This document shows, in pieces, positions 42,476 to 63,345 of a DNA stretch of 64,000 bases. The stretch's first letter is position 1. Each line of letters begins with the position of its first letter. The position numbers were made by a program, and so were the translations under genes. A model generated the notes under the pieces. That model was not told where the DNA came from. It made no database searches and saw only the letters and a list, made by a program, of their open reading frames with translations. The stretch is from Bullifex porci. Its GTDB lineage: Bacteria > Spirochaetota > Spirochaetia > Sphaerochaetales > Sphaerochaetaceae. The stretch is from positions 62,001 through 126,000 of the forward strand of contig NZ_VUNN01000002.1 in the NCBI RefSeq assembly GCF_009695635.1, given 5' to 3'.

Positions 42476-42483
42476 TCGCTTAG

Positions 42484-42513
42484 GCTGCTAGCTAACTACT
42501 AGCAGCTTTTTTT
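42484..42513 (+). terminator. Terminator of dnaJ
   Basis: GCTGCTAG (42484-42491) pairs with CTAGCAGC (42499-42506), followed by seven Ts. The IS200-type element begins about 11 bases later. Confidence 0.9.
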
Positions 42514-42524
42514 GTGTAACGAAT

Positions 42525-43283
42525 ACCTCCAGCTCGGCTGGAGGTTCAAAAAAGCTTTAGCTATACACAAATAAAAAATTCTCCAATAATGGAAGTGTTG
42601 CATTCCCAAATAGCACCACTACCAATAAAGGAGAATAAAAATGGATGAGGAAAGTTTAGCTCATACCAAATGGAATTGTAAATACCACATAGTATTTGCA
42701 CCGAAGTACAGACGACTAGTAATATATGGAAGGCTCAAAATAGAGATAGGAAAAATATTAAGAGAGTTATGTACAAGGAAAGGAGTAGAAATAGTTGAGG
42801 CGGAATGTTGCCCCGATCATATACACATGCTAGTATCGATTCCGCCGAAGCTAAGCGTGTCAGCATTCATGGGGTACCTAAAAGGGAAGAGTAGCCTAAT
42901 GATATTCGATAGGTTTGCGAATCTAAAGTACAAGTATGGGAACCGAAAATTCTGGTGCAGAGGATTTTATGTAGACACGGTAGGACGGAATAAAGCGGCA
43001 ATAGAAAAGTACATCCGAAACCAGCTAGTTGAGGACAAATTGTCCGAGCAGCTGGTGATGGATGAGCTTTTCGATCCATTTACAGGAGAGCCAAATAAAG
43101 GCAATAAAAATAAGAAATAAAATCTGGTGGAAGAAAAATTCTAGCAGTAACATAAGACCAGAGCTGCTTTAGCAGCAGCCTGTAAAGGTGGTGCGAAAGG
43201 AAGTGCAATTCAGGGCGCCGTCAGCGCCAGCCGGTAGAAAAGGGTTGCACCCGCAGTACAAACTACCGGCTGAGCCGGTAGTT
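42525..43283 (+). mobile_element. IS200/IS605-type element
   Basis: About 760 bp with no terminal inverted repeats but subterminal palindromes, as expected for single-strand transposition: left hairpin ACCTCCAGC/GCTGGAGGT (42525-42533/42537-42545, loop TCG), right hairpin AACTACCGGC/GCCGGTAGTT (43261-43270/43274-43283, loop TGA). It contains one gene, tnpA, and about 140 bp of structured non-coding DNA before the right end (including GGCGC/GCGCC at 43214-43228). No tnpB accessory gene is present. It sits immediately behind the dnaJ terminator. Confidence 0.85.
42641..43120 (+). CDS. tnpA: IS200-type Y1 transposase TnpA
   Basis: HUH-superfamily single-strand transposase, 159 residues, apparently intact. 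WNCKYHIVFAPKYRR is the family start, the HUH pair is His60-x-His62 in CCPDHIHMLVSI, and the nucleophile is Tyr124 in IEKYIRNQ. The C-terminal 25 residues (DELFDPFTGEPNKGNKNKK) extend beyond the core. AAGGAG precedes the ATG. With both end hairpins kept, the element may still be able to move. Confidence 0.93.
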   Translation: MDEESLAHTKWNCKYHIVFAPKYRRLVIYGRLKIEIGKILRELCTRKGVEIVEAECCPDHIHMLVSIPPKLSVSAFMGYLKGKSSLMIFDRFANLKYKYGNRKFWCRGFYVDTVGRNKAAIEKYIRNQLVEDKLSEQLVMDELFDPFTGEPNKGNKNKK

Positions 43284-43331
43284 TTGATTAACACTATTAT
43301 TTGATCTATGAAAATCCTCAGATGGTGAATT

Positions 43332-43490
43332 AAAATGCGCTGGTAGTAGTAAAACACCAGCTATTACAGAATAAATATAATAGAAGGTATCTAACTTATA
43401 AAAAGCATCAGCTATAAAGAGCAAAGAATAGATAGTGAAATAAATGAAGCTTGGAGAAGATCTTAAACTCATAGATAGACTATATTTATT
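43332..43490. repeat. Left flanking copy of a truncated membrane-protein gene
   Basis: Shared with 49318-49414. Read on the minus strand it encodes the N-terminus of a hydrophobic protein starting MSLRSSPSFIYFTIYSLLF and continuing YSVIAGVLLLP; the gene then runs out near the IS200-type element. The right copy has an in-frame-like deletion of about 55 bp. The left copy ends exactly where the ISL3-type end begins (43492). The protein family is not recognised. Confidence 0.75.
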
Positions 43491-43491
43491 G

Positions 43492-43607
43492 GGGCTTCAG
43501 GAATAGTTGTGGGTAGAATTGAGAAAAAATAAGAAAAAAGGTAATTATTGAAAATAGCCATATATTTAATCTAAAGTGTTAAGCGACCAAACCAACACAG
43601 GAGACAA
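43492..43607 (+). mobile_element. Solitary left end of an ISL3-type element
   Basis: Begins GGCTTCAGGAATAGTTGTGG and is almost identical over about 105 bp to 45768-45880, the left end of the nearly complete element downstream. After 43607 the similarity stops, so only the left terminal repeat and leader remain. Bases 43608-43788 show no gene. Confidence 0.88.
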
Positions 43608-43788
43608 ATGATTAGAAGAGCGGAAAATTGCGTGATTGTTGACACTATTTAAAACGTGATCAGTCCATTACCTTTGTTTTATGACAGTTTTCGATATTAT
43701 CTTGCAAATTATTCGCAATTGGATATTGATTTTCGTTGAAGATTAACAGTACTAATATTATTATTTAAGAAAGCAGGAAGTAATCGCA

Positions 43789-45096
43789 ATGTTGTTGGAA
43801 TTCAGAATCAAGAACTATAAATCATTTGTCGATGAGACGGTATTCTCCATGGTACCGGCACCGAAGCAGACCGGTCTGGATTACAGTATTCTTAGTGAAA
43901 AAGTCGGGAGCAGGAAGCATAAAGCACTATGCTCAGCCGTCATTTACGGGCCTAATGCTTCCGGCAAAACCAATATCATAGGTGCAATGGAAACGCTCAG
44001 GGCAATAATCCTCAGAGGAAACATACGTAACAGTGATTCCGATATATCTCCGAATGTTGCTTCCTCATCACTGGAACTCATTCCTAACTGTGATTCAGAA
44101 GGCTCGCCTGCTGAATTCTCGATTTCCTTTATCGAAAAGGGTCTTCTCTTCCAGTATTCTCTGATCCTTGATCTTGGACGGTTCCTTGACCGGGATTATG
44201 AAAGAAAGATTCTTGAAGAAAAGCTTGTCGTTAATGATAAGGAAGTCTTTTCACGTGGAACACATCTTGAAGTGTACCTGCCTCAGGTGATTCGTCACCT
44301 GACCAGCAGGAGCATAAAAAGAATAACACCCAAGACAAAGGAAATTGCGGAAAGCAGCCTTTCAGATACGGAACTGTTTCTGACAAATGGCTTCAAGAAT
44401 ATCTTCGCCAAAGAACTTACAGATGTCATGATTAACTGGTTTGCTGAAAAATTCATGGTCATATATCACTCGGATGCTATCAAGGTCATGCGTAAGTTTG
44501 CTGAACCGAAGGAAAAGGCAATCCATGTGGAAGCTACACTTACTGAAGCAGCCAGGGAATTCGGCATCACTTCCAATGCACTGGGATACCGAACTGATGG
44601 TGAAAGTGATGAAGCGGTACTTTGTTCCATCTTAAGTAACAATAAGGCTGTCATACCTGCAGATATATTTGAATCATACGGCACCATCCGTTTCATAAAT
44701 GAGTTCCCGCTGATCATCAAAACCCTTATAAACGGCGGAACGCTTGTAATGGATGAATTTGATGCTTCCATCCACCCGATGGCTTTGATGAACATCATAT
44801 CCATCTTCCACAATGATGAAATTAACATGAATCATGCCCAGTTCATTTTTAACACTCACAATCCAATCTTTCTGGATGGATCCCTGTTCAGAAGAGACGA
44901 GATCAAATTTGTTGAGAGGGATCAGGAAACAAAGCACAGTACACATTATGCTCTTTCTGATTTTTCAACTGCTGAAGGAGTCCGAAAGGGAGAGGATTAC
45001 ATGAACAACTATTTTGTCAGCCGCTATGGTGCAATCAAAGAAATTGATTTTAGTCCGATTCTTAAAAAAATCATTTCACAAAGTAGGGAAAACTGA
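43789..45096 (+). CDS. AAA family ATPase, AbiLi/RloA-like
   Basis: A 435-residue SMC/OLD-like ATPase of the AAA_15/AAA_21 group. N-terminal FRIKNYKSFVDE, Walker A GPNASGKT at residues 54-61, and Walker B TLVMDEFDASIHP with Asp322-Glu323, followed by a D-loop-like segment and HAQFIFNTHNPIFLD. It is directly followed, 3 bp later, by a RloB-family protein. In Lactococcus the AbiL pair (ATPase plus RloB-fold protein) aborts phage infection, and RloA/RloB pairs are frequent in restriction loci, so a defence role is inferred. C/G-ending codons are more frequent than in the neighbours, a sign of transfer. Confidence 0.82.
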   Translation: MLLEFRIKNYKSFVDETVFSMVPAPKQTGLDYSILSEKVGSRKHKALCSAVIYGPNASGKTNIIGAMETLRAIILRGNIRNSDSDISPNVASSSLELIPNCDSEGSPAEFSISFIEKGLLFQYSLILDLGRFLDRDYERKILEEKLVVNDKEVFSRGTHLEVYLPQVIRHLTSRSIKRITPKTKEIAESSLSDTELFLTNGFKNIFAKELTDVMINWFAEKFMVIYHSDAIKVMRKFAEPKEKAIHVEATLTEAAREFGITSNALGYRTDGESDEAVLCSILSNNKAVIPADIFESYGTIRFINEFPLIIKTLINGGTLVMDEFDASIHPMALMNIISIFHNDEINMNHAQFIFNTHNPIFLDGSLFRRDEIKFVERDQETKHSTHYALSDFSTAEGVRKGEDYMNNYFVSRYGAIKEIDFSPILKKIISQSREN

Positions 45097-45099
45097 AAG

Positions 45100-45759
45100 A
45101 TGCTGGAGACTAAAAAATATGTCCTTACAGTTGAAGGAGAAACCGAACAATGGTATTTCATCTGGCTTAGGGATCAGATTAACGGTTTCGAAGGTCGTAC
45201 ATATAATGTTTCAATTGTTCCAAGGGTTCAGCAGAGCCCAAAGAGTTTCTATAAAGGAACAAACTTAAAAGTTACGCCTGAAGTAATCCATATCTGCGAT
45301 GTGGAAAGTACTGATGATTATCATATTGAAAAGTTTGAAAACATCCTCAAAGAGATGAAAGAGGCAGACAGGCAGAAGAAAATAAAATATCAGCTTGGTT
45401 ACAGCAACTTTACATTTGAGCTTTGGATGATTCTACACAAAAAGGACTGTTTTGGGCCATTTAACAGCAGAAAGCAGTATCTGGCTCCGATTCAGCAGGC
45501 TTTTGGAGAGAAGTTCGAGGATCTTGACCATTACAAACAGGAATCAGCCTTCAAAAGATGTCTTGGAAAACTGTCGCTGAATGATGTCAAAGATGCCTTA
45601 CGCAGAGCAGACAAAATTGCTGAACAGAATGGAAAGGACGGGAAGAAACCTGTAAATCTATGCGGATACTCGTATTACAGGGATAATCCCGCCCTTTCCA
45701 TCAACGAGGTTGTAAAAAAAATATTTACTGAGTGCGGTGTCTTACCCAAAAGAAAATAA
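45100..45759 (+). CDS. RloB-family TOPRIM-like protein, AbiLii-like
   Basis: A 219-residue protein of the RloB family (PF13707 type). The N-terminal KKYVLTVEGETEQWYFIWLRD carries the TOPRIM-like glutamates (Glu12, Glu14, Glu16), and VIHICDVESTDDYHIEKF supplies the acidic pair expected in the second motif; the SNFTFELWMILH and RADKIAEQNGK segments are family features. It is probably a nuclease effector gated by the adjacent ATPase. Same foreign codon style as its partner. Ends 3 bases before the left end of the ISL3-type element. Confidence 0.8.
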   Translation: MLETKKYVLTVEGETEQWYFIWLRDQINGFEGRTYNVSIVPRVQQSPKSFYKGTNLKVTPEVIHICDVESTDDYHIEKFENILKEMKEADRQKKIKYQLGYSNFTFELWMILHKKDCFGPFNSRKQYLAPIQQAFGEKFEDLDHYKQESAFKRCLGKLSLNDVKDALRRADKIAEQNGKDGKKPVNLCGYSYYRDNPALSINEVVKKIFTECGVLPKRK

Positions 45760-45761
45760 GA

Positions 45762-47291
45762 GGCTTTAGGGATTGTTGTGGGTAGAATTGAGAAAAAATA
45801 AGAAAAAAGGTAATTATTGAAAATAGCCATATATTTAATCTAAAGTGTTAAGCGACCAAACCAACACAGGAGACAAATAATGGCTACGCTTAATACATGT
45901 TCAGAAAACTTCTAAATGTCAATACAGCTATCTTCACAAATATGAGAATTGAAACAAATGAAAAAGGAGTCTCCTGTATTTATGTTGAAGCTAAAATAAA
46001 TAAGAAACAGGCAAATAGATGCCCAATCTGTGGAAGGAAGTGTCCAGGATATGAGAAAGGAAGTAATAAGGTTAGAAGATGGAGAGCACTTGATATAGGA
46101 GAACTTATACTTTTCATAGAAACAAGCCAAGCTCGAATTTATTGTAATGATTACGGAGTTCAATATCCATCAGTTCCATGGGCATATGAAGGTAGTCGTT
46201 TTACTAAAGAATTTGACATGACTGTAGCATGGTTAGCCTGTCAACTTTCCAAGAAGGCTGTTGCTGAGTTTCTTAGGATAGACTGGGAGACTGTTGGGAG
46301 ATGTATAGCAAGAGCTAGAATGATATTGAGCCTAACTTAAAGAAAAGGCTCGATGGACTTGTTCTCATAGGAATTGATGAAACATCGTATAGAAAAGGTT
46401 TTAAGTATATTACAGTCATAGTAGACCATGATAAAAACAGAGTTGTATGGCTTCATGAAGGACATGGAAAGTCTGTACTGGAAAAGTTTTACGAAGAACT
46501 CTCTGATAAACAGCGTAAGAATATAAAGGTAGTTACTGGTGATGGTGCAAGATGGATAACTGAGTGCGTTGAGAAGTATACTCCAGAGTGTGTTAGATGC
46601 ATGGATTCCTTCCATGTTGTAGAATGGGCTAATGCTGCTCTTGATGAAGTTCGAATAAATGCTTGGAGAGATGCAAATGCCATAGTTAAAGCTTTAGAGG
46701 AAAAGTATGGTAAGATTGGTAAAGGAAAACCTGCAAAAGATAATCGTAATGTTCAGAAAATACTCAATGCAAGAAAGGAAGCTTACTATATAAAAGGATC
46801 TTCCTTTGCACTTGGTAAAGCACCTAAGCACCTTAATGAAAGGTAGAGAGAAACGCTGGAAAGCATACGTAGAGGTAATTCAAAGTTTTACCGCGCGTAT
46901 GAGATGAAAGAGTCTCTAAGATTAATACTTAGGTGTACAAATAGATTTGATGCTGAAAGTAGACTTAAATCTTGGTTATGGTGGGCAGCTCATTCTAGAA
47001 TAGAGGCATTTAAAGAGCTTGCTAAGAAGGTAAGAAGGAACATGGAATTCATTTTGCTCCACCATTTTCTATGACCTAAGTAATGCAAGAATTGAGGCTG
47101 CCAACAACAAGATAAAACTTCTGATAAGGCGAAGCTACGGGTTCAGAAACATCGATTCAATGCTGAATATGATATATCTCACATGTTCCAATCTGAAGAT
47201 ACCACTTCCGAACAGGCCATAGGAGGAGATTATCGCAGTATGAGAAAAGAAATTACTGCTACTTCCTACCCACATTTATGCCGGAAGAGCC
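45762..47291 (+). mobile_element. ISL3-type insertion sequence, decayed
   Basis: About 1530 bp. The left end reads GGCTTTAGGGATTGTTGTGG; the right end, read inward, GGCTCTTCCGGCATAAATGT then GGGTAG. Both share GGCT and TGTGGGTAG, the imperfect terminal repeats of this family. No 8-bp target duplication is visible: left flank AAATAAGA, right flank GTTTTTTG. The transposase is broken. Confidence 0.82.
45897..47222 (+). pseudogene. ISL3-type transposase, frameshifted
   Basis: The N-terminal zinc-finger part is clear (CPICGRKCPGYEKG). The frame shifts near 46315, continues with the DDE catalytic regions (LIGIDETSYRKGFKYITVIVD; VVTGDGARW; CMDSFHVVEWANAAL), meets an in-frame TAG at 46844-46846, shifts again near 47040, and ends with SNARIEAANNKIKLLIRRSYGFRN, which carries the catalytic glutamate. 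At least three lesions make it inactive. Confidence 0.9.
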
Positions 47292-47345
47292 GTTTTTTGA
47301 TGACCCTTTATTGGTGGTATCGTAGTGGGACCTAAATTTTCCAGT

Positions 47346-47391
47346 TTTAACCGCAATTTACATTTAATTTGCGGTTAAATAAGGTTATAAT
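47346..47391 (+). promoter_or_regulatory. Operator-like inverted repeat and leaderless promoter
   Basis: TTTAACCGCAA (47346-47356) and TTGCGGTTAAA (47369-47379) are perfect 11-bp arms with a 12-base centre. A consensus TATAAT (47386-47391) follows, then TATTTT and ATG. The repeat covers the -35/spacer area, suiting repression, and the mRNA should have no leader. Confidence 0.7.
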
Positions 47392-47397
47392 TATTTT

Positions 47398-49206
47398 ATG
47401 AATAAGCTTGCAGATTTAGAAGAGAAAATTTCCTCTTTGCCGGAAGGTTATGTAACTCGAAAAGTAATCAACAATAAGCCTTATTATTATCATCAGTGGA
47501 AAAGCAACGGGAAAAACTTAAGCCGTACTTTGAATGAAGAAGAAGTAGAACCGTTGAAGGCTCAGATTGAAGAACGCAAGAAGCTTGAAAAAGAACTTAA
47601 GCTTGTAAGAAAAATAACTCCTGATATGTCAGAGTTTGAAGATCAGTTCAACTGCAATATAACTGTAGGCGATGCCCTTAAGGAACTTATTCAGAGTGCA
47701 AGCCAGTATAAAACCCGCGACTGCATTGAACGTCTGGACAAATATATAAATAGTCCTACTACAGATAAAGTATGTGTTGTTTATGGTCTTCGCAGAACCG
47801 GAAAAACTACAATGCTTAAACAGGAAATGCTTTCTTTCTCTGAAGCTCAGCTGAAACATACGGTTTATATTAAAGCCCGTAAAACCGATACAATTTCTTC
47901 AATAAAAAAAGACATAAAGAAACTTGAGAAGGCCGGATACAAATATCTTTTCATAGATGAAGCAACCCTGATGGAAGATTTCATTGACGGAGCCTCATTG
48001 TTCTCTGATGTATATGCTGCTACCGGTATGAAGATTATTCTTTCAGGAGCTGACTCATTAGGCTTTTATTTTGCAGAAGGTCAGGAGCTTTACGATCGTG
48101 CAATAACAATCCACACAACAGTCATCCCTTATAGAGAACATTCAAGACTTCTTGGCATTACAGATATTGATGAATACATCCGTTACGGGGGAACCCTTAA
48201 AGCTGGTGTACTTGATTTTGAAAATACAGAACTGAACACCGAAGAAGCTTCTTTCCGTGATGATGAAGCTACAAGACGCTATATTGATACTGCCATCTGC
48301 AAGAACATTCAGCATAGTTTAAGATGCTATGAAAACGGGCGCTACTTCCGTCATCTTCGTGAGCTTTATGAAAAAAATGAACTTACAAATGCCATCAACA
48401 GAATTATCGAGGATGAAAACCATAAGTTTGCTGCAGAAGTAATTACAAGTGTCTTTAAGAGTCACGATTTACATTCAACAGCCCAGATGCTCCGTTCTGC
48501 CCGTGATGAGGAAAAAAGAACAGATATTCTTGATGATGTTGATACAACAGCCATCATAGACACCCTTAAAAAAATCCTGGATATTAAAGAAAAAGAAGAA
48601 CAGGAAATTGGTGTATCTAGTGTTCATGTGAATGAAATTAAGCAGTATCTCAAACATCTTGATTTGACTGAAACTCTGGAAATTGACTTCATTCAGGGCA
48701 GCCGTGAAGAGTATATAATTTTTACTCAGCCTGGAATGCGGTTCTGTCAAGCACAGGCTCTTGTTTATTCTTTGATGAAAGATGACCAGATCAAGAATCT
48801 TGATGCCAAAACAATTCAGCTTATCACAGACAAAATAATTGAAGGAGTGCTTGGCCACATGCTTGAAGATATTGTGATTTTTGAAACCAAACGCGGACTT
48901 GTAAAAAACTCTAGAAATTCAAAAAAGGAAGTTTATAAGATTCGATTTGAAAATCACGAATATGACATGCTGATTTACGATGCTAACACAAACACCTGTG
49001 AAGCTTACGAAATCAAGCATACTACAGAACCATTCCCGAATCAGTACAGACATCTAGTTAATGAAGACTTTGTTAAGGCAACAGAAAAACGCTTCGGACA
49101 GATTACAAAACGCTGTATTCTTTACAGAGGAAAAACTTATACAGAAGAGAACAGCATTGAGTATAAGAATGTGGAAGAATACCTATGTGAGTTAGGGCTG
49201 GACTAA
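47398..49206 (+). CDS. AAA_14-type ATPase with C-terminal nuclease-like domain
   Basis: A 602-residue protein. Residues 10-70 form a small N-terminal module (LPEGYVTRKVINNKPYYYHQWKSNGK) resembling DNA-binding modules of mobile genes. The ATPase has Walker A GLRRTGKTT (residues 130-138) and Walker B YLFIDEATL (about 183-191). The C-terminus has a PD-(D/E)xK-like pattern: Asp523 in YDMLIYD, and Glu538-x-Lys540 in AYEIKHT. Such AAA_14/DUF4143 proteins are abundant in treponemes, but their function is unknown; a toxin-like or DNA-processing role is possible. Codon use differs from the resident genes. It stands alone behind an operator-like repeat. Confidence 0.75.
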   Translation: MNKLADLEEKISSLPEGYVTRKVINNKPYYYHQWKSNGKNLSRTLNEEEVEPLKAQIEERKKLEKELKLVRKITPDMSEFEDQFNCNITVGDALKELIQSASQYKTRDCIERLDKYINSPTTDKVCVVYGLRRTGKTTMLKQEMLSFSEAQLKHTVYIKARKTDTISSIKKDIKKLEKAGYKYLFIDEATLMEDFIDGASLFSDVYAATGMKIILSGADSLGFYFAEGQELYDRAITIHTTVIPYREHSRLLGITDIDEYIRYGGTLKAGVLDFENTELNTEEASFRDDEATRRYIDTAICKNIQHSLRCYENGRYFRHLRELYEKNELTNAINRIIEDENHKFAAEVITSVFKSHDLHSTAQMLRSARDEEKRTDILDDVDTTAIIDTLKKILDIKEKEEQEIGVSSVHVNEIKQYLKHLDLTETLEIDFIQGSREEYIIFTQPGMRFCQAQALVYSLMKDDQIKNLDAKTIQLITDKIIEGVLGHMLEDIVIFETKRGLVKNSRNSKKEVYKIRFENHEYDMLIYDANTNTCEAYEIKHTTEPFPNQYRHLVNEDFVKATEKRFGQITKRCILYRGKTYTEENSIEYKNVEEYLCELGLD

Positions 49207-49317
49207 TTTAATAAACAAAAATTTCTGGAGATTTATTAATGAATAACGGCATAAATCCTAACATAATTCATCCTATTGCGTGATATTATATGGTGCTCCT
49301 CCGTAAACTGAAATACG

Positions 49318-49414
49318 ATGGTAGTAGTAAAACACCAGCTATTACAGAATAAAGAATAGTGAAATAAATGAAGCTTGGAGAGAATTTTAAACTCATAGAT
49401 AGACTATATTTATT
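49318..49414. repeat. Right flanking copy of the truncated membrane-protein gene
   Basis: Shorter copy of 43332-43490. On the minus strand it reads MSLKFSPSFIYFTILYSVIA, then GVLLLPSYFS. A hairpin (TTACCCCC 49415-49422 with GGGGGTAA 49445-49452) starts at its edge. The rest of 49453-49616 is AT-rich with no gene. Confidence 0.75.
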
Positions 49415-49616
49415 TTACCCCCGCATAATAGCTTGGCACTTAAAGGGGGTAAGAGAGAAAGAACTTTAAAGTAATCTACAAGCATGTATTTTTATCTTAT
49501 TTCTTAAAATAAAAATAATTATTTGAAAATTACAGATTATTACAAAGTGTCAAAAAAATGTGATAATCTTACCTTTTCATATCTCTCTTTTTTTATTATA
49601 TTAATACAGCTATTTT

Positions 49617-52600
49617 ATGAATATAACAAATATGATAAAAAGACTTAAATATATAATTTTTATAGCTTTAATATTACTTCTTTCAGCTTGTGCTATAACC
49701 CCAGAAGAAGAGGAAAGGAAGGAACTTACTCCTGCTTTAAAATATATAGAAGCTCCTAAAAATGTTTTAGTTATAAGTGACTGTATAAATGGTAGAATAG
49801 AATTATCTTGGGATGAAGTTCCAAACGCTACACATTATATAGTCGAATATCAGAGTGCAACTGACTATCTCTCTGATAAAGCGATGAAGACATATGTTAC
49901 AAATAATAATTCCTTTACGCTATCGACATTTCCTAATGCAAACGATAAAAGATTTGTCTTTCGAGTAAGAGCTTTATCAAAGCAAACCTCGAGAGTAATT
50001 GAATCAGAGAGTAGTGAGCTTTTTGAGGGTGCTATAGTTGATGATTTTACTGTAAGTACAAATATTAAAAGCTCAAAGCTAAGCTTCTATTCTTCCTTTG
50101 CAAAGAACTCTTCAATATTAGGAAATGGTAATATTATAGATTGTCAAATCCTTTATTTTGATGGCGATTATACTCAGTCTGACCTTCCTAGCCTTGATGA
50201 GGCTTGTGATAGCTTCTCTATTGGCTCAAACGAGACTAAAACTATTACAGCTGTATTAATGTGTAATAGCAAGGTTGTAAAGAAAAAGAGTGTTACAGTT
50301 ACCTCTGATGTATCTTATATCCCAGCAAATATAAAGAGTATTAATGTTGAAAACAATAAAACAGATGGAATACATCTAAGCTGGATAAGTCCTGGAATTA
50401 ATAAGGGACTTGAAAATACACAAATTTTATTCCTAGTTGAAAGAGCATTGCAGGGTAGTAATAATTGGGAAATAATTAAGCCTACAATCGATGAAGAGTA
50501 CTTTAAGCCAGAGAATAATGATGATTTAAGTGTAGAGCAATTCTCAATGTCCTTTGTTGATACCTCAGCTCTTTCAAATTGTGATTACCAATATCGTATT
50601 TCAACTGTTTATAAAATAATAAATGGTGAAAACGAATATTATTCTAGTGAAGCAATTAGTGATAGCAATATAGTAAGTAATTGCTATCGTACCGATTCTA
50701 AAGTAAAGTCCTTTGTGCATACTAATCAAAGTGGGCTAATAACTGCTCCCGATGGCTCTAAAAGCTATGAGTTAAAGTTTAAATGGGAAACATACCATCC
50801 TCTTCCAGAGGATTGCTCTATTGTAATTAATAGAAAGCTAATTAATACATTATCATCAAGTGAGATAGAAAGCACATTAAATAAAGAATTTAATAATGTA
50901 AGCAGTAATGTCTTTGAAGACACAATAACCTTAACAGCTAGTGAAGCTATAGACCCTAAGAGCTTCATTTATACGATTTCTATAAAGTATAATGATGGCA
51001 CTAATTTAGAATCCCCATACGTAGCAACTAATAATAGTGGACAAGCTATTATTACCTTTGAGGGCTTAGAGATTACAAGAATTATTAGCTCTCTAAGTGC
51101 AACTACAGGAGCTAATGCTTTAAATGATAAAATCCGATTAGCTTGGACTGTAGAAAGTTTTTATCCTGAAGATTTTAATACCTCTAAGGTTACTTATACT
51201 ATTTACAAGCAAAATCCAGCTGATATGACATATTCAAAGGAAGAAGAAAATATTCCTTTTGAAACTCATTCATATGAATTAAATGTAAAACCAGGAGAAT
51301 CCTTCTCATATTTAATTAAGCCTGTCTATAGTGATACAAGTGATAACAAATATGTAAGAGATTACCCAACAACTGGACCAGCTGTTGGTAGTGCTTTAAA
51401 TCTAGTTACTAACCTTAAGGCATCACAAAATACATATAACGATAAAATCGTATTAAATTGGGATAGTGTTGAAAATGCTAAAGGCTATAAGGTTTGCTAT
51501 TTAGATAAAGAGGTAGAAACCTTAGATACTAGATATGAAATTACAGATATCCCAATAGATAGATATGGCACTAAAATTGAAATTAAGGTAAAGACTATTG
51601 ACTGCGAGGAAAGAATATCGAGTGATGGCAGTACTACTATAGGTAAGATACTTGGAGGTATTACACCAACAGTAAATGGAAATGCTAAGGATATCGATGT
51701 TACTTGGAACGCTGTTGATGGTGCAACAAAGTACAAAGTAAATGTATATACAGCTTTACAAGCAGAGGAGCCTATTATTTCTACTATAGTAAGTGCAGGT
51801 AGTACCTTAAGCTTTAAATTAACTTCTGATGATGTCCTAGCAATTGAAGGCCTTGTTGAGCCACTATCAAATCCATATTACTTCTCTGTTATCCCATATG
51901 TAGGTCAGGAGTCCTCTAAGGCCGAAAATAGAATAGAGGGGCATTGGCTACTTGCTCCAAAGAATGTAGCTGCTACCAAAGCTACATATAAGGATATGAT
52001 TGATATAACTTGGGATAGCGTAGAGGGTGCAAATGCGTATGTTGTTTACTACAGAGTTCAAGGCTCAAATAGCTGGAATACAACTACAGTATTTTCTACC
52101 TCCTGTAAGCAATATGATGTTGAAGATATATTTGAATATCGTGTTGCAACTCTTGATAACCAAATGAATGAGGGGCCTGCTTCTCTTGTTACAGATTCAT
52201 CTATTGGCTATGTACTAATGAGACCAATTTATTGCTCAGGAATTGATGAAAAAAATGGTCTTTATTCTATTCGCTTTAACAAGGTAGAAGCTGCAACTAG
52301 CTACACTTTAAGTATTCCTAACTGGGATAATACAATCATTCCAATAAATCCAAATAGTGTAATAGTTAAAACGTCTAATTTTGAGTCAGGTGATTTGACA
52401 TATAGTAATGGCTTTTATACATATTATTTTGCTAAGCAGGACCTTAGCACAGGTGTTTCTATTGTCGTAGAGATAAATTCAAATAAAGATAGTGTAGAGT
52501 CAAAATATACACCTGTTACTATTGTTGCAGAGACTCTAAATGCAAACGAAGTAGTTAATTTAGCTAATAATTCATTAAGAGATATTTTTGCTGTTATAAA

Positions 52601-53030
52601 TTCTGCCTTTGAGGGAGACTGGTGGGCAAGAACAACTGGAGAAATTGGAGATCAAAAATCTAGAACATATGAATCTGCTGATGGAAAAATTAAAGCAAAT
52701 AATAGCTATAGTGATTGGTGGAGTAAAAATCAACAATATGGAACTGTGAAAATATCTAACTATAGAAGTGGCTCTATTGTAATAGATAGTGCTAATTTAT
52801 CAACAATGGCTACAGACGGCGGAGGGCCTGGGTATTTAGATGCTGATCCATTTGATGGCTTTGCTAGTGGTTCTTTAACTATCACAATGCCATATAACCT
52901 TGGAACCTATAAGGTTGAATATTCAGGCTTTAAAAATGATTTAACAGGTGGAAGTGCAAAAGTAACGAAGAGTACAGAAAGCGAAGGACAAACTGTATAC
53001 GCAACAAGCACAAAGATTAGGATATTATGA
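49617..53030 (+). CDS. Large lipoprotein with fibronectin type III repeats
   Basis: A 1137-residue exported lipoprotein. The signal peptide ends in LLSAC with lipidated Cys25. Several FN3-like modules follow, recognisable by repeated blocks such as IELSWDEVPNATHYIVEY, IVLNWDSVENAKGYKVCYL and IDITWDSVEGANAYVVYYRV. The last 170 residues form a different, glycine/serine-rich domain (GDWWARTTGEIGDQ; GSLTITMPYNLGTYKVEYSGF). No enzyme motif is seen; adhesion or surface scaffolding is inferred. An alternative start is the ATG five codons in. No Shine-Dalgarno precedes 49617. Its stop overlaps the next start (ATGA type). Confidence 0.78.
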   Translation: MNITNMIKRLKYIIFIALILLLSACAITPEEEERKELTPALKYIEAPKNVLVISDCINGRIELSWDEVPNATHYIVEYQSATDYLSDKAMKTYVTNNNSFTLSTFPNANDKRFVFRVRALSKQTSRVIESESSELFEGAIVDDFTVSTNIKSSKLSFYSSFAKNSSILGNGNIIDCQILYFDGDYTQSDLPSLDEACDSFSIGSNETKTITAVLMCNSKVVKKKSVTVTSDVSYIPANIKSINVENNKTDGIHLSWISPGINKGLENTQILFLVERALQGSNNWEIIKPTIDEEYFKPENNDDLSVEQFSMSFVDTSALSNCDYQYRISTVYKIINGENEYYSSEAISDSNIVSNCYRTDSKVKSFVHTNQSGLITAPDGSKSYELKFKWETYHPLPEDCSIVINRKLINTLSSSEIESTLNKEFNNVSSNVFEDTITLTASEAIDPKSFIYTISIKYNDGTNLESPYVATNNSGQAIITFEGLEITRIISSLSATTGANALNDKIRLAWTVESFYPEDFNTSKVTYTIYKQNPADMTYSKEEENIPFETHSYELNVKPGESFSYLIKPVYSDTSDNKYVRDYPTTGPAVGSALNLVTNLKASQNTYNDKIVLNWDSVENAKGYKVCYLDKEVETLDTRYEITDIPIDRYGTKIEIKVKTIDCEERISSDGSTTIGKILGGITPTVNGNAKDIDVTWNAVDGATKYKVNVYTALQAEEPIISTIVSAGSTLSFKLTSDDVLAIEGLVEPLSNPYYFSVIPYVGQESSKAENRIEGHWLLAPKNVAATKATYKDMIDITWDSVEGANAYVVYYRVQGSNSWNTTTVFSTSCKQYDVEDIFEYRVATLDNQMNEGPASLVTDSSIGYVLMRPIYCSGIDEKNGLYSIRFNKVEAATSYTLSIPNWDNTIIPINPNSVIVKTSNFESGDLTYSNGFYTYYFAKQDLSTGVSIVVEINSNKDSVESKYTPVTIVAETLNANEVVNLANNSLRDIFAVINSAFEGDWWARTTGEIGDQKSRTYESADGKIKANNSYSDWWSKNQQYGTVKISNYRSGSIVIDSANLSTMATDGGGPGYLDADPFDGFASGSLTITMPYNLGTYKVEYSGFKNDLTGGSAKVTKSTESEGQTVYATSTKIRIL

Positions 53031-55198
53031 TGAGAAAGCTTTTATTAATACTAATTACATCTATCCTCATATCATGTAACGCATCGATATTAATGACTAA
53101 TGGGGAATTAACAAAGCCAAATGATAATATAGATATAAAGGACACAGTGATAAGTGAAAGTGGCTTTAAAGGGGATGCCCCTAAAAACATTAATGCAACT
53201 AAGTCATATTACACTAACCAAATTAATGTGCGCTGGAGTAGTGTAAATTATGCTGACTACTATACTATTGAACGCTGTGAGCATCTAACACCTGAAAATC
53301 CTACAGATAATAAAACCTGGAAGGAGATAGAGGAGAGTATCTTCGATACCTCCTATGTTGATGAAACTAATCTTGAAGTTGGAGTTTATTACACATATAG
53401 AGTTAAGGCTCATACCTTTGAAGGTAAGGTTGGTGTAGCTTCTCAGGAGGCAACAGGAACTATACTATCATCTCCTTTAAATATTGATGCTTCTAAGGGA
53501 ACAAGTATTAGTACTATTGATATTGAGTGGGAGCAGATGCCTAATGTTGATGAATATAGAATTTATAAATCAACACTTCCTAATGTTAGTGGCCTAGATA
53601 GCGAGTTTGTTGATAGAGTACAAGCCTCAAGCACCTCTTTAAACTTAATTTACTCATATAAGGTAGATTTAGCTAAGGAGGGCGGTAAGGAGCTTTACTT
53701 TGCTATTGAGGGTGTTGGACCTACAAATGTTAGAGCTGATATAAGCCTACCTAGATCAGGGTATACATTCGTACCAGGCTCTCCACAGGCTCCATCTGTT
53801 CCTTATATCACTAAAGCCGATAGCACAGACTCTATTTCTATTAAGTTTAAAAGCACAGGAAGTGATACTAAATATATTATAAAGAGGTACTATTCAGGCT
53901 CCTCTGAGACAGTTATTTTCTCTGAAGAATATGGTAATACGCTACCTGAAGCAGATGCAGAGGGCTATTACACATTTATTGATACAGATGTTAAAGCTAA
54001 CGTAGAGTACACATACTCTATCATTGCTTACAATGAAATTGGCTCCTCACCTGCAACAGTTGTAACTGGTTATATTCTCTCTCCTGTTTTAAATATTGCC
54101 CTAGAGCCTACTACTAGAGGTAGTAATATTGGCTATGAGCTATCGTTTAACGAGCCTGTAGGTTCCTCTGATAGCGGCAAAGTAAATAGCTACAGATATG
54201 AAATTACATACTTTAATAAGGCAGGAGAACAGATGGGCTCTCCAAAATACTATGATCAAGGAAGTGATGTAAAAGATTTTACTCCAATAAGTAGAAGTAT
54301 AACTAAGGAAAGTGAATTAGCTGAGGTTAGCTATGGAGTTGTTAAGGTTCTATGTGGAGCCTTAGAGTCTAGTGTAGAGATAACTAATAGAATACCAATG
54401 CTAAGTGAGCCTGTTACCTCTATTAGTGCAAATAAAAATAGTAAGCCAAAGGAAAATGAGACTCCAAATAGCTATGGAGTATATCCAGTTACAGTTACCT
54501 GGACATCAGACTACATTGGGGAGAGAGTGCTTACTCGTAAGGGCTCTGATGGATCAGTAAAGAAATTTAATATTTTAAGTGGTTTACAATTTATAGATAC
54601 TACCTGTGATATCCTAGTTATCTACGACTACTACATCGATACCTCTGATGTATTTGGAAGATCACTTGGCCCTATTATGCATACAGGAGCTGCATATGGT
54701 GCAATTACTCCTACAATATTTGCTAATGTATTAGAGTCAGTTTCAATGAAGCCATTTGAAAACCAAACCTATGTACCAGCTGAGTACAAGCAATATTGGA
54801 AGAAGTGTAAGATAGCACAGCTAGTTTCCTATGGTAATGCTTCTGATCTATCAACACAGATGAAGGCGCTTGGAAGTGCCTCTGACCAGGACCACTTCAG
54901 AGGAGGTACAATTAGCTATAATGCCTCAATGGAAGGTGTTGGAGGACAGATATACTTCTCATATAATAGCTTCGGTGAGAATGAGAACTTCGCATTAACA
55001 GGTAACTATGAGATGCATGTAGATGCTTCAGGAACTGGTTCTGCTTCATCTAATACAGGTGGGTTAACTGTAAGTGGTATGTATCCAGCATTTATTTCTC
55101 TTGCAGAAATAAGTGTATCTAAAAAGGCCTTTATAGGCTCCTATTTAATTACCTATCACTATAGTGATGGAGATGAAGAGTATAGAGTAAGGATTTAA
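53027..55198 (+). CDS. Second fibronectin type III lipoprotein
   Basis: 723 residues, signal peptide ending ILISC with lipid-modified Cys17. FN3-like modules are visible: INATKSYYTNQINVRWSSVNYADYYTIERC, and IDIEWEQMPNVDEYRIYKS, then a third and fourth with RYYSG and NEIGSSPATVV. The C-terminal 130 residues (GGTISYNASMEGVGGQIYFSYNSFGENE; YEMHVDASGTG) are a separate domain with the same flavour as the end of the preceding protein. It overlaps its neighbour by 4 bp and precedes the small lipoprotein by 2 bp, so expression is coupled. Confidence 0.78.
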   Translation: MMRKLLLILITSILISCNASILMTNGELTKPNDNIDIKDTVISESGFKGDAPKNINATKSYYTNQINVRWSSVNYADYYTIERCEHLTPENPTDNKTWKEIEESIFDTSYVDETNLEVGVYYTYRVKAHTFEGKVGVASQEATGTILSSPLNIDASKGTSISTIDIEWEQMPNVDEYRIYKSTLPNVSGLDSEFVDRVQASSTSLNLIYSYKVDLAKEGGKELYFAIEGVGPTNVRADISLPRSGYTFVPGSPQAPSVPYITKADSTDSISIKFKSTGSDTKYIIKRYYSGSSETVIFSEEYGNTLPEADAEGYYTFIDTDVKANVEYTYSIIAYNEIGSSPATVVTGYILSPVLNIALEPTTRGSNIGYELSFNEPVGSSDSGKVNSYRYEITYFNKAGEQMGSPKYYDQGSDVKDFTPISRSITKESELAEVSYGVVKVLCGALESSVEITNRIPMLSEPVTSISANKNSKPKENETPNSYGVYPVTVTWTSDYIGERVLTRKGSDGSVKKFNILSGLQFIDTTCDILVIYDYYIDTSDVFGRSLGPIMHTGAAYGAITPTIFANVLESVSMKPFENQTYVPAEYKQYWKKCKIAQLVSYGNASDLSTQMKALGSASDQDHFRGGTISYNASMEGVGGQIYFSYNSFGENENFALTGNYEMHVDASGTGSASSNTGGLTVSGMYPAFISLAEISVSKKAFIGSYLITYHYSDGDEEYRVRI

Positions 55199-55200
55199 CT

Positions 55201-55638
55201 ATGAAAAAGATATTAACTATTTGTGTGCTTATATTTTCACTCTTTATGCTAACAGGGTGTGATGATATAAATGCAGTTATTAGCCTGCTTCCTAAGTTTG
55301 ATACAACTCTTCCAAATAACCTAGATGGTAAATGGGCATATTTTGATAGTGAGGAAGAGAGATTAAATAATGAATTTACTCGTCAATTTACCTTTGATAG
55401 CAAGGAGCAAAGGTTCAAGCTTGAAATATCAGGAGTAGGGACCATAACTAAGAGTGGTTCCTACTCTGTACAATATAAAACATATACAATTACAGAGTGT
55501 AATGGGACTTTAACTCTTTACTATGAAGATAATAGTGTAGAGAAATACAATTTTTACTATAAAGCTACAGCTATAGATGGGCCAGAGTATATAACCCTTT
55601 CAAATAGTGGCACCTACTACTATGGAGGAAAGAAATGA
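55201..55638 (+). CDS. Small lipoprotein of the FN3 operon
   Basis: 145 residues with a lipoprotein signal (FMLTGC, Cys20). The mature part has alternating beta-strand-like segments: LDGKWAYFDSEEERLNN, FTFDSKEQRFKLEISG, GSYSVQYKTYTITECNGTLTLYYED. Opening with GKW and a short meander, it could be a small lipocalin-like barrel, but no family is recognised with certainty. It overlaps the following gene by 4 bp. Confidence 0.7.
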   Translation: MKKILTICVLIFSLFMLTGCDDINAVISLLPKFDTTLPNNLDGKWAYFDSEEERLNNEFTRQFTFDSKEQRFKLEISGVGTITKSGSYSVQYKTYTITECNGTLTLYYEDNSVEKYNFYYKATAIDGPEYITLSNSGTYYYGGKK

Positions 55639-56180
55639 AAAAGCTATTAGCTATTGTACTTCTATTTGTTTTAGCTCTTCCACTTTTCGCAATAGATAAT
55701 AATGAAAAGCTTGATGTTAAGCTTAAATCACACATATACCTCGATTCTGTAATGCTTTATGGATACCCTACATTAGGTGGCACCTTCGATTTAGGGCTAA
55801 ACATAGATACAGTTTCTATATCAGCGTATTTACGATTTGAGCATCTATTTAGACCAATGGGCTCTAATACTGGGAAGCTAGTAGCCGCAGAAGAAATGGG
55901 AGAGTTAGGGCTTTCCTTTAAGGTTAGAGTCTATGAGCTTTCAAGATTTAATGTCTCTCTTGGAATTAATACAGGATGGTACCAGCAATGGATAATGCTC
56001 TCTTCTAATGCTGGAATATACAACCTAGTTCATAACGGTATTATGATTAGACCTGAGTGTAATATTGGTTTGCGATTAATTGGAAAGTGGAATATTGAAT
56101 TAGGTCTATTCTATCAAACTCCGCTTTATCCATCATATAGCGGTTACCAGGGCTGGGGAGTACAGGTAAAGCTATTTTAA
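55635..56180 (+). CDS. Small outer-membrane beta-barrel protein
   Basis: 181 residues with a cleavable signal peptide (LLAIVLLFVLALPLFA, cut near residue 19) and no lipobox. The mature protein is built of amphipathic strands of about ten residues (LDVKLKSHIYLDSVMLYGY; VSISAYLRFEHLF; FNVSLGINTGWYQQW; WNIELGLFYQTP) and ends VQVKLF, a terminal phenylalanine as in the BAM recognition signal. An eight-strand barrel is inferred. As the last gene of the operon it may anchor or export the lipoproteins. Confidence 0.68.
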   Translation: MKKLLAIVLLFVLALPLFAIDNNEKLDVKLKSHIYLDSVMLYGYPTLGGTFDLGLNIDTVSISAYLRFEHLFRPMGSNTGKLVAAEEMGELGLSFKVRVYELSRFNVSLGINTGWYQQWIMLSSNAGIYNLVHNGIMIRPECNIGLRLIGKWNIELGLFYQTPLYPSYSGYQGWGVQVKLF

Positions 56181-56199
56181 TGGAAAAATAAAGCTTTTC

Positions 56200-56228
56200 T
56201 TGACTAAATAAAAAATTATAGTAAGAAT
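56200..56228 (+). promoter_or_regulatory. Promoter of rlmB, near-leaderless
   Basis: TTGACT (56200-56205) and AAGAAT (56223-56228), 17 bp apart; ATG nine bases later and no Shine-Dalgarno. Confidence 0.6.
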
Positions 56229-56237
56229 ATCGCTATT

Positions 56238-61674: not shown

Positions 61675-63345
61675 TTGATTGATCTTTATAAAAAGAGAAG
61701 CCTCGGGACTTTTTGTTCTGAGGTTTTATTATTAGTTATATCTGCATTTATATATTCTATTGCTTTTCCAGGTTTTGTCTCAGAGAAGGGATTAGGCTTT
61801 ATAGCGTTCTTTGCTATAATCCCAGTTTTAATAGTAATTAAGAATACCTCTTGGAAGGCAGTTGGCTTTCATGGCTTTTTATTTGGTGTTGCCTTTTATT
61901 GCTTCTTTAATTACTGGCTTCCAAACTTCCATAAGGGAGCAATAGTAATTGTTACAGTAATTAAGGGCACAGAGATGCTAATGCTCTTCTTTGCTCTTAA
62001 GGGTGCAGTAACTCTATTTAAGAAGCATGGATATCTATTACAGGGCTTTATTTGGATTAGCTATGCATATCTATCTGAGAGCTGGTTTGCAGGTTATCCA
62101 TATGGAACAATTGCTTACGCTCTATATCAATATTTACCATTAATCCAAATTGCAGAGTACACAGGTATTTGGTTTATCATTTACATGATAATTGCGCCTC
62201 AAGCATATATTGCAAATAATCTTGCAGATAGAGTTAAGAGACAAGGCGATAGATTCTTAGTTTACGTAAAGAAAAATTTATTATTCCCAATTATCTATGT
62301 AGCTGTATTTATCGTTTGGCTTATAACTGGTACTATCCAGCTAAGCTATTGGGAAAATGCAAAAGAGGATAGAACCTGGAGAGTTGCAACCATACAGCAT
62401 AACCATGACTCATGGCAGGGTGGGCTAACAACCTATAGGAGAAACTTCTCTAACCTAAGAAGGTTATCACTTGAAGCTATTAGGCAGAACCCAGATATAG
62501 TTGTTTGGTCTGAGACTGCATTTGTCCCATCTGTAAGCTGGCATATGAACTACTCTTATGAGGGTGCAGGTGATACTCTAGGTAATGCTGAGACAGCAGA
62601 GCTAGTTAAGGAGTTTGTTTCCTTTGCAGAGGAGCTCGATAAGCCTCTATTAACTGGTAACCCAACAGGTGTATTAAAGGACCCAACAAAGGGACCTATC
62701 GACTTAGAAACTGGAGAGCTTAATAGAACAGATTATAACTCAGTTATTTTGTTTGATGATGGAACTATTAAGGCTACCTATAATAAGCAGCACCTAGTAC
62801 CATTTACTGAACACTTCCCATATCAAAAGCAGCTTCCATGGCTATACAACATCTTAGTTGCTCTCGATTACAACTGGTGGGAGAAGGGTGATGAGCCTGT
62901 AGTATTTGAATCTGATGGAGTAAAGTTCTCAACTCCAATTTGCTATGAGGATGTATTTGGATACCTTCCGGCAGAGTTTGTTAAAAATGGTGCTGATGTA
63001 ATAGTTAATATGACTAACGACCGTTGGTCTGGCTCTGCCGATGCGGCAGTACAGCATGCAACTATTGCAACTCTAAGAAGTGTAGAGACTAGAAAGTCTA
63101 CAGTAAGAAGTACTAACTCAGGACAAACCTGTATGATACTTCCAACTGGTAAGATCGTTGACCCAGTTGAGCAATTTAAGATGACATACCACATCTATGA
63201 TGTGCCTGTATATGAGAGTGCAACCTATGGTCACACCTTCTATGTAGAGCACATAGATTACTTAGCTTATGCATCGATTTATATCAGTGCTATTGCACTT
63301 ATTGTAGGCCTTGCATTAAATATTTTAAGAAGAATTAAAAAATGA
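61675..63345 (+). CDS. lnt: Apolipoprotein N-acyltransferase
   Basis: Adds the third acyl chain to bacterial lipoproteins; 556 residues. The N-terminal half has about seven membrane helices; the nitrilase-like periplasmic domain keeps the catalytic triad Glu280 (WSETA), Lys371 (YNKQHLVPF) and Cys423 (CYEDVFG); a last helix anchors the C-terminus. The start is TTG, with AGGAG 9 bases upstream. It would serve the lipoproteins of the FN3 operon among others. Its stop overlaps the cinA start (ATGA). Confidence 0.95.
   Translation: MIDLYKKRSLGTFCSEVLLLVISAFIYSIAFPGFVSEKGLGFIAFFAIIPVLIVIKNTSWKAVGFHGFLFGVAFYCFFNYWLPNFHKGAIVIVTVIKGTEMLMLFFALKGAVTLFKKHGYLLQGFIWISYAYLSESWFAGYPYGTIAYALYQYLPLIQIAEYTGIWFIIYMIIAPQAYIANNLADRVKRQGDRFLVYVKKNLLFPIIYVAVFIVWLITGTIQLSYWENAKEDRTWRVATIQHNHDSWQGGLTTYRRNFSNLRRLSLEAIRQNPDIVVWSETAFVPSVSWHMNYSYEGAGDTLGNAETAELVKEFVSFAEELDKPLLTGNPTGVLKDPTKGPIDLETGELNRTDYNSVILFDDGTIKATYNKQHLVPFTEHFPYQKQLPWLYNILVALDYNWWEKGDEPVVFESDGVKFSTPICYEDVFGYLPAEFVKNGADVIVNMTNDRWSGSADAAVQHATIATLRSVETRKSTVRSTNSGQTCMILPTGKIVDPVEQFKMTYHIYDVPVYESATYGHTFYVEHIDYLAYASIYISAIALIVGLALNILRRIKK

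Follow-up and report, generated by a model that had tools for sequence, protein, structure and literature searches.

A four-gene cassette for a putative barrel-anchored surface complex, exchanged between species of one spirochaete family

Four genes of Bullifex porci, closely packed on one strand (Table 1), raise a simple question: do two very large lipoproteins, a small lipoprotein and a small barrel protein belong to one surface structure, or do they only share a transcription unit? The initial annotation of the window (the whole 64,000-nucleotide stretch that was analysed) took the close coupling as a sign of a stoichiometric complex. We have followed the four genes, A to D, through the window's family and compared their predicted products with known systems.

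Table 1. Features of the cassette and its island, with positions in the window
Feature	Position	Strand	Length	Description
Island	42476..56237	+	13.8 kb	holds the A-D cassette; between dnaJ and rlmB
Gene A	49617..53030	+	1137 aa	lipoprotein, lipobox Cys C25 (LSAC)
A-CTD coding region	52509..53027	+		C-terminal domain of gene A
Gene B	53027..55198	+	723 aa	lipoprotein, lipobox Cys C17 (ISC-N)
Gene C	55201..55638	+	145 aa	small lipoprotein, lipobox Cys C20 (LTGC)
Gene D	55635..56180	+	181 aa	signal peptide and 8-stranded barrel (predicted)

The four genes and their predicted products

The ORF calls place A-D in one unit with junctions of -4, +2 and -4 bp, exactly as had been claimed; scans for promoters and terminators gave nothing above chance. 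The lipoboxes of A, B and C were judged by inspection, and C17 of B is invariant. An Lnt-like apolipoprotein N-acyltransferase gene lies 5.5 kb downstream of the cassette (window 61675-63345), so the lipoproteins here may be triacylated.

The description of A and B as large FN3 lipoproteins holds for B directly and for A by way of its relatives and a profile. B matches Pfam fn3 (28.3 bits, cut-off 25; E 2e-6). A itself has no fn3 match above the Pfam cut-off; fn3 was matched in 10 of 13 A relatives, and an FN3 profile built in this analysis found 8 FN3-like stretches in A and 3-4 in B. A can be described as about nine FN3-like domains followed by a C-terminal domain, A-CTD (about residues 965-1137), which carries the motif FEGDWW...GYLDADPF. 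The AlphaFold2 model of B (pLDDT 84.6) comprises five beta-sandwiches and then a C-terminal domain of helix and sheet (B-CTD, residues about 556-723). Structure matches of this model, in a search that included the C-terminal domain, are dominated by FN3, and generic FN3 structures are the only solved ones related to B by sequence. A phage-structure origin was rejected: the PHROG matches on A are tail proteins, confined to the FN3-containing stretches. A defence origin was rejected as well, since PADLOC gave nothing.

No Pfam family covers A-CTD or B-CTD. The two had been called similar, and this claim survives in a weakened form: their likeness exceeds a reversed-profile control (41%, E 3e-4, with a wider profile; 0.3-0.4% with one profile reversed), but it is weak (profile-profile P 60%, E 9e-5). 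Among the four cassette proteins A shows the lowest conservation, and when A-CTD is aligned together with the domain of the same type in a separate lipoprotein, X, mean column identity is 24% and Asp-Trp alone is invariant. Such variability would suit a recognition head.

The last protein had been read as a barrel ending in Phe, and both parts of that reading agree with our results: D of the window ends in ...VQVKLF, and AlphaFold2, given an alignment of 13 sequences, predicts eight strands forming a barrel (pLDDT 89.5, pTM 0.75). D thus shows the signal peptide, the eight strands and, in the window copy, the C-terminal aromatic residue of 8-stranded outer-membrane barrels; other members end in I, L, V or A as well as F. 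The best structural match of the model is NspA (Z 17.2, 147 residues, 2.6 A), with OmpA at Z about 16, both at 7-9% identity. In sequence, D matched no curated outer-membrane protein family in Pfam (29 members) or NCBIfam (window D) and has no relative among solved structures. C matched no Pfam family; its matches lie below the cut-off, none of them lipocalin-like.

Distribution, co-inheritance and exchange

Of the 139 genomes of the window's family, 44 have D, 45 have full-length B, and 43 have the two adjacent on the same strand; the exceptions (G073, G075, G052) are cut by contig ends. Separate occurrence in relatives, which would have spoken against a complex, was therefore not seen. Position sufficed to identify all four genes in 38 of 40 fetched loci; D was not called as an ORF in the remaining two, where the coordinates of the genome search put it beside B. 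All 12 loci of the genome collection, a set that overlaps with the 40, carry the four genes. Two genomes, G028 (among the 38) and G062, have no C between B and D, and a longer C homologue, in divergent orientation, lies just upstream of A.

The cassette spans five genera of one family. The cassette is not general to spirochaetes: in a sample of 395 genomes from the class, neither D nor A-CTD was found outside the family. The named relatives are without exception assemblies of uncultured Spirochaetales or Spirochaetaceae, and one of them, RUG023, is by name a rumen genome. B has no match on phages, plasmids or viral contigs. The surroundings of the cassette vary widely, with 26 different clusters among the downstream neighbours in 37 loci and 20 among the upstream neighbours in 35; no gene family recurs beside it in most loci, as judged by neighbour clusters rather than by profile scans of individual neighbours.

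A-D are inherited, moved and swapped between species as one block. Pairwise distances correlate for all six gene pairs (Mantel r 0.68-0.90, 0/999 permutations). The B and D trees contain the same genus-discordant groups mixing genera g1 and g10, for example L046 (g1) with L069 (g10) and L035 (g10) with L036 (g1), and on starred branches the genus must change 5 times in the B tree and 3 times in the D tree. The exchange is seen most directly in L038 and L046, which come from two species of the window's genus: identity is 92% over 3.8 kb of one flank and 96% over 4.8 kb of the other, stops roughly 80-100 bp before A and returns within 35 bp after the D stop, and the A-D proteins between are only 20-26% identical. 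The L046 alleles are instead akin to the g10 cassette L069 (46-49% for A-C, 73% for D). The evidence for the swap comes from metagenome-assembled contigs, though the two junctions are each internal to a single contig longer than 100 kb. L037 and L046 repeat the pattern with flanks of 79% and 86%. Together, co-transfer and cassette swapping argue strongly for one functional unit.

Some loci also carry remnants of earlier cassettes: part of a D gene in L035, and parts of B in L040 and L065. The fragment in L035 (5239-5487) is the 3' part of a D of different type and lies beside a metC-like gene; a metC-like gene also flanks the L067 cassette, and the fragment is probably the scar of a replaced cassette. 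In L038 (G012) a pair of transposase genes is inserted within A-CTD, between A and B, so that A is probably broken; B, C and D are intact.

In the window the cassette shares its island with an IS200-type transposase, an AAA_21 and RloB pair, an ISL3 remnant and an AAA_14 ATPase. The pair (43789-45759), an AbiEii-like AAA_21 ATPase followed by a RloB-like gene, is a candidate anti-phage or stress pair, and the ISL3-family transposase (45897-46846) is broken into two partial ORFs. In five relatives (G003, G005, G012, G013, G015) dnaK, dnaJ and rlmB are directly consecutive; G012, G013 and G015 carry the cassette at other sites, and the genome search did not find D in G003 and G005. In G004 (DUF5655, PDDEXK_9) and G008 the genes upstream of rlmB are different. 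With an empty site in five relatives and other cargo in these two, the dnaJ-rlmB interval looks like an insertion hotspot.

A proposed complex and its alternatives

We consider it somewhat probable that A-D form one functional unit, an outer-membrane surface complex that is anchored by the barrel and swapped as an allele; its exposure, contacts and function we infer. D would be the integral outer-membrane anchor or organiser, with A, B and C held at the membrane through their N-terminal lipids. B, the more conserved rod, would bind D at its conserved outward side and display a short rod that ends in a C-terminal domain, likewise conserved. A would be a long rod of about nine FN3 domains whose C-terminal head, more variable than that of B, probably serves recognition and would attach the cell to glycan, mucus, fibre, or to host or partner cells; C would be a small accessory subunit. 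Exchange of the whole cassette between species as an allele is what would be expected if each subunit fits no partners but its own and if the displayed surface is under diversifying selection, which might act through host, phage or niche recognition.

Are the rods outside the outer membrane or beneath it? With the N- and C-termini of D set periplasmic, following known even-stranded outer-membrane proteins, conservation is higher in its outward half and loops than in its periplasmic half (Mann-Whitney p 8e-4). The top-scoring loops are L2 (P74, G76, G80) and L4 (Y168, Y171); the periplasmic turns are short and have the lowest conservation. In comparable barrels the surface loops are usually variable, so that conserved loops in D make a constant outside partner likely. 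Most simply, this partner would be B; the conservation could instead reflect the fold, or a partner other than B. Together with the length of the A rod, the conserved loops favour rods predicted to lie outside the membrane. A-C could also face the periplasm, depending on how lipoproteins are sorted in this family. A scaffold of that kind, in which FN3 rods beneath the outer membrane connect D to peptidoglycan or inner membrane, would serve as an envelope spacer or morphology system; it would agree with the membrane attachment of A-C by N-terminal lipids, which Lol-type sorting could keep on the inner leaflet, and with Pfam scans in which the cassette shows no export machinery for surface lipoproteins. 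We nevertheless regard it as rather unlikely: the conserved side of D is the extracellular one, about nine FN3 domains would extend to near 30 nm, a great length for a periplasm, allelic swapping is commoner in exposed structures than in internal ones, and the Pfam scans of the cassette proteins found no peptidoglycan-binding domain.

The rods might alternatively capture nutrients, A and B binding polysaccharide at the surface as SusD/E/F do and then passing it on. Many A and B relatives have GH85_C-like sandwich matches in Pfam in addition to FN3, one A relative matches SusE, and the relative that is by name a rumen genome fits such a role. The barrel, in contrast, is modelled with eight strands and is probably too narrow for a porin or for sugar import, and the varying neighbours of the cassette include no recurrent SusC/TonB barrel, glycoside hydrolase or transporter, which makes glycan capture unlikely. 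It is highly improbable that A-D are unrelated lipoprotein genes that share a transcription unit without forming a complex. Gene overlap alone is indeed no proof of interaction, and spirochaetes are rich in lipoprotein genes; but B and D co-occur without exception save at contig ends, exactly four genes are transferred and swapped, and C is still linked after its relocation.

Relation to known systems and to a second set of lipoproteins

Several known systems resemble the proposed complex in part. OmpA, NspA and OmpX have the 8-stranded fold that is predicted for D; D differs from them in sequence (9% identity, no Pfam match), in having no C-terminal peptidoglycan domain, in its linkage to three lipoproteins, and in its outward loops, which are conserved instead of variable. 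Invasin and intimin (type Ve, inverse autotransporters) likewise combine a barrel, an Ig-like stalk and a C-terminal recognition head. In those proteins barrel and stalk form one polypeptide, whereas A-D are four chains with lipid anchors, FN3 rather than Ig stalks, and a barrel, D, that is separate from A and B. SusCD/E/F of Bacteroidota also encode an outer-membrane barrel and multi-domain beta-sandwich lipoproteins in one operon; the cassette has no linked TonB-dependent SusC barrel, no SusD and no linked glycan enzymes. The dentilisin operon of Treponema denticola (prcB-prcA-prtP), likened here by description and not by sequence, likewise encodes a surface lipoprotein complex of several parts in a spirochaete, but it is protease-based and is not known to include a barrel gene. 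RcsF is reported to be a lipoprotein held by the barrels OmpA/OmpC and reaching the surface (PMC4942254). RcsF differs in being a small stress sensor, not an FN3 rod, and in not being exchanged as a cassette.

The A-type C-terminal domain also ends lipoprotein X (about 830-960 aa), found in about 14 genomes of the family. In several g1 loci X adjoins a further lipoprotein, Y, upstream of A; in other genomes, where the cassette is absent, X accompanies a lipoprotein-OMP pair, E-F. F has no Pfam match and is taken as a putative OMP from its length and sequence. Loci with X, Y or E-F include L036:7492-12191, L041-L045 (upstream of A) and L096-L100. E-F was rejected as a fixed part of the cassette, since it lies beside the cassette in some loci only and occurs with X where there is none; a search of the window genome with one distant F sequence also gave no match, which is weak evidence. 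The pattern suggests that X, Y and E-F make up a second uncharacterised surface system, and the head that two lipoprotein systems have in common suggests that surface structures of these bacteria form a family.

The system is new, and its parts are of known kinds; in the literature, partially covered, we found no description of such a four-gene system. Tentatively, and with less assurance than we attach to the complex itself, we propose a previously undescribed class of modular surface structure in uncultured spirochaetes of gut type: a pair of FN3 rods docked on a barrel, bearing two unclassified C-terminal domains and encoded by four co-diverging genes that are swapped whole between species and genera in the manner of a serotype, with the A head common to the X system (often with E-F). 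What began as a guess about an operon is now a defined system with sharp borders, and it defines protein families (A-CTD, B-CTD, C and D) of which none is matched in Pfam. The natural swap of a whole cassette between near-identical flanks marks the four proteins as a unit of selection, from which follow direct predictions: an allele-specific fit between B and D, and surface exposure of A. The cassette locus could govern specificity for host, niche or phage in uncultured spirochaetes, a group with little-known surfaces.
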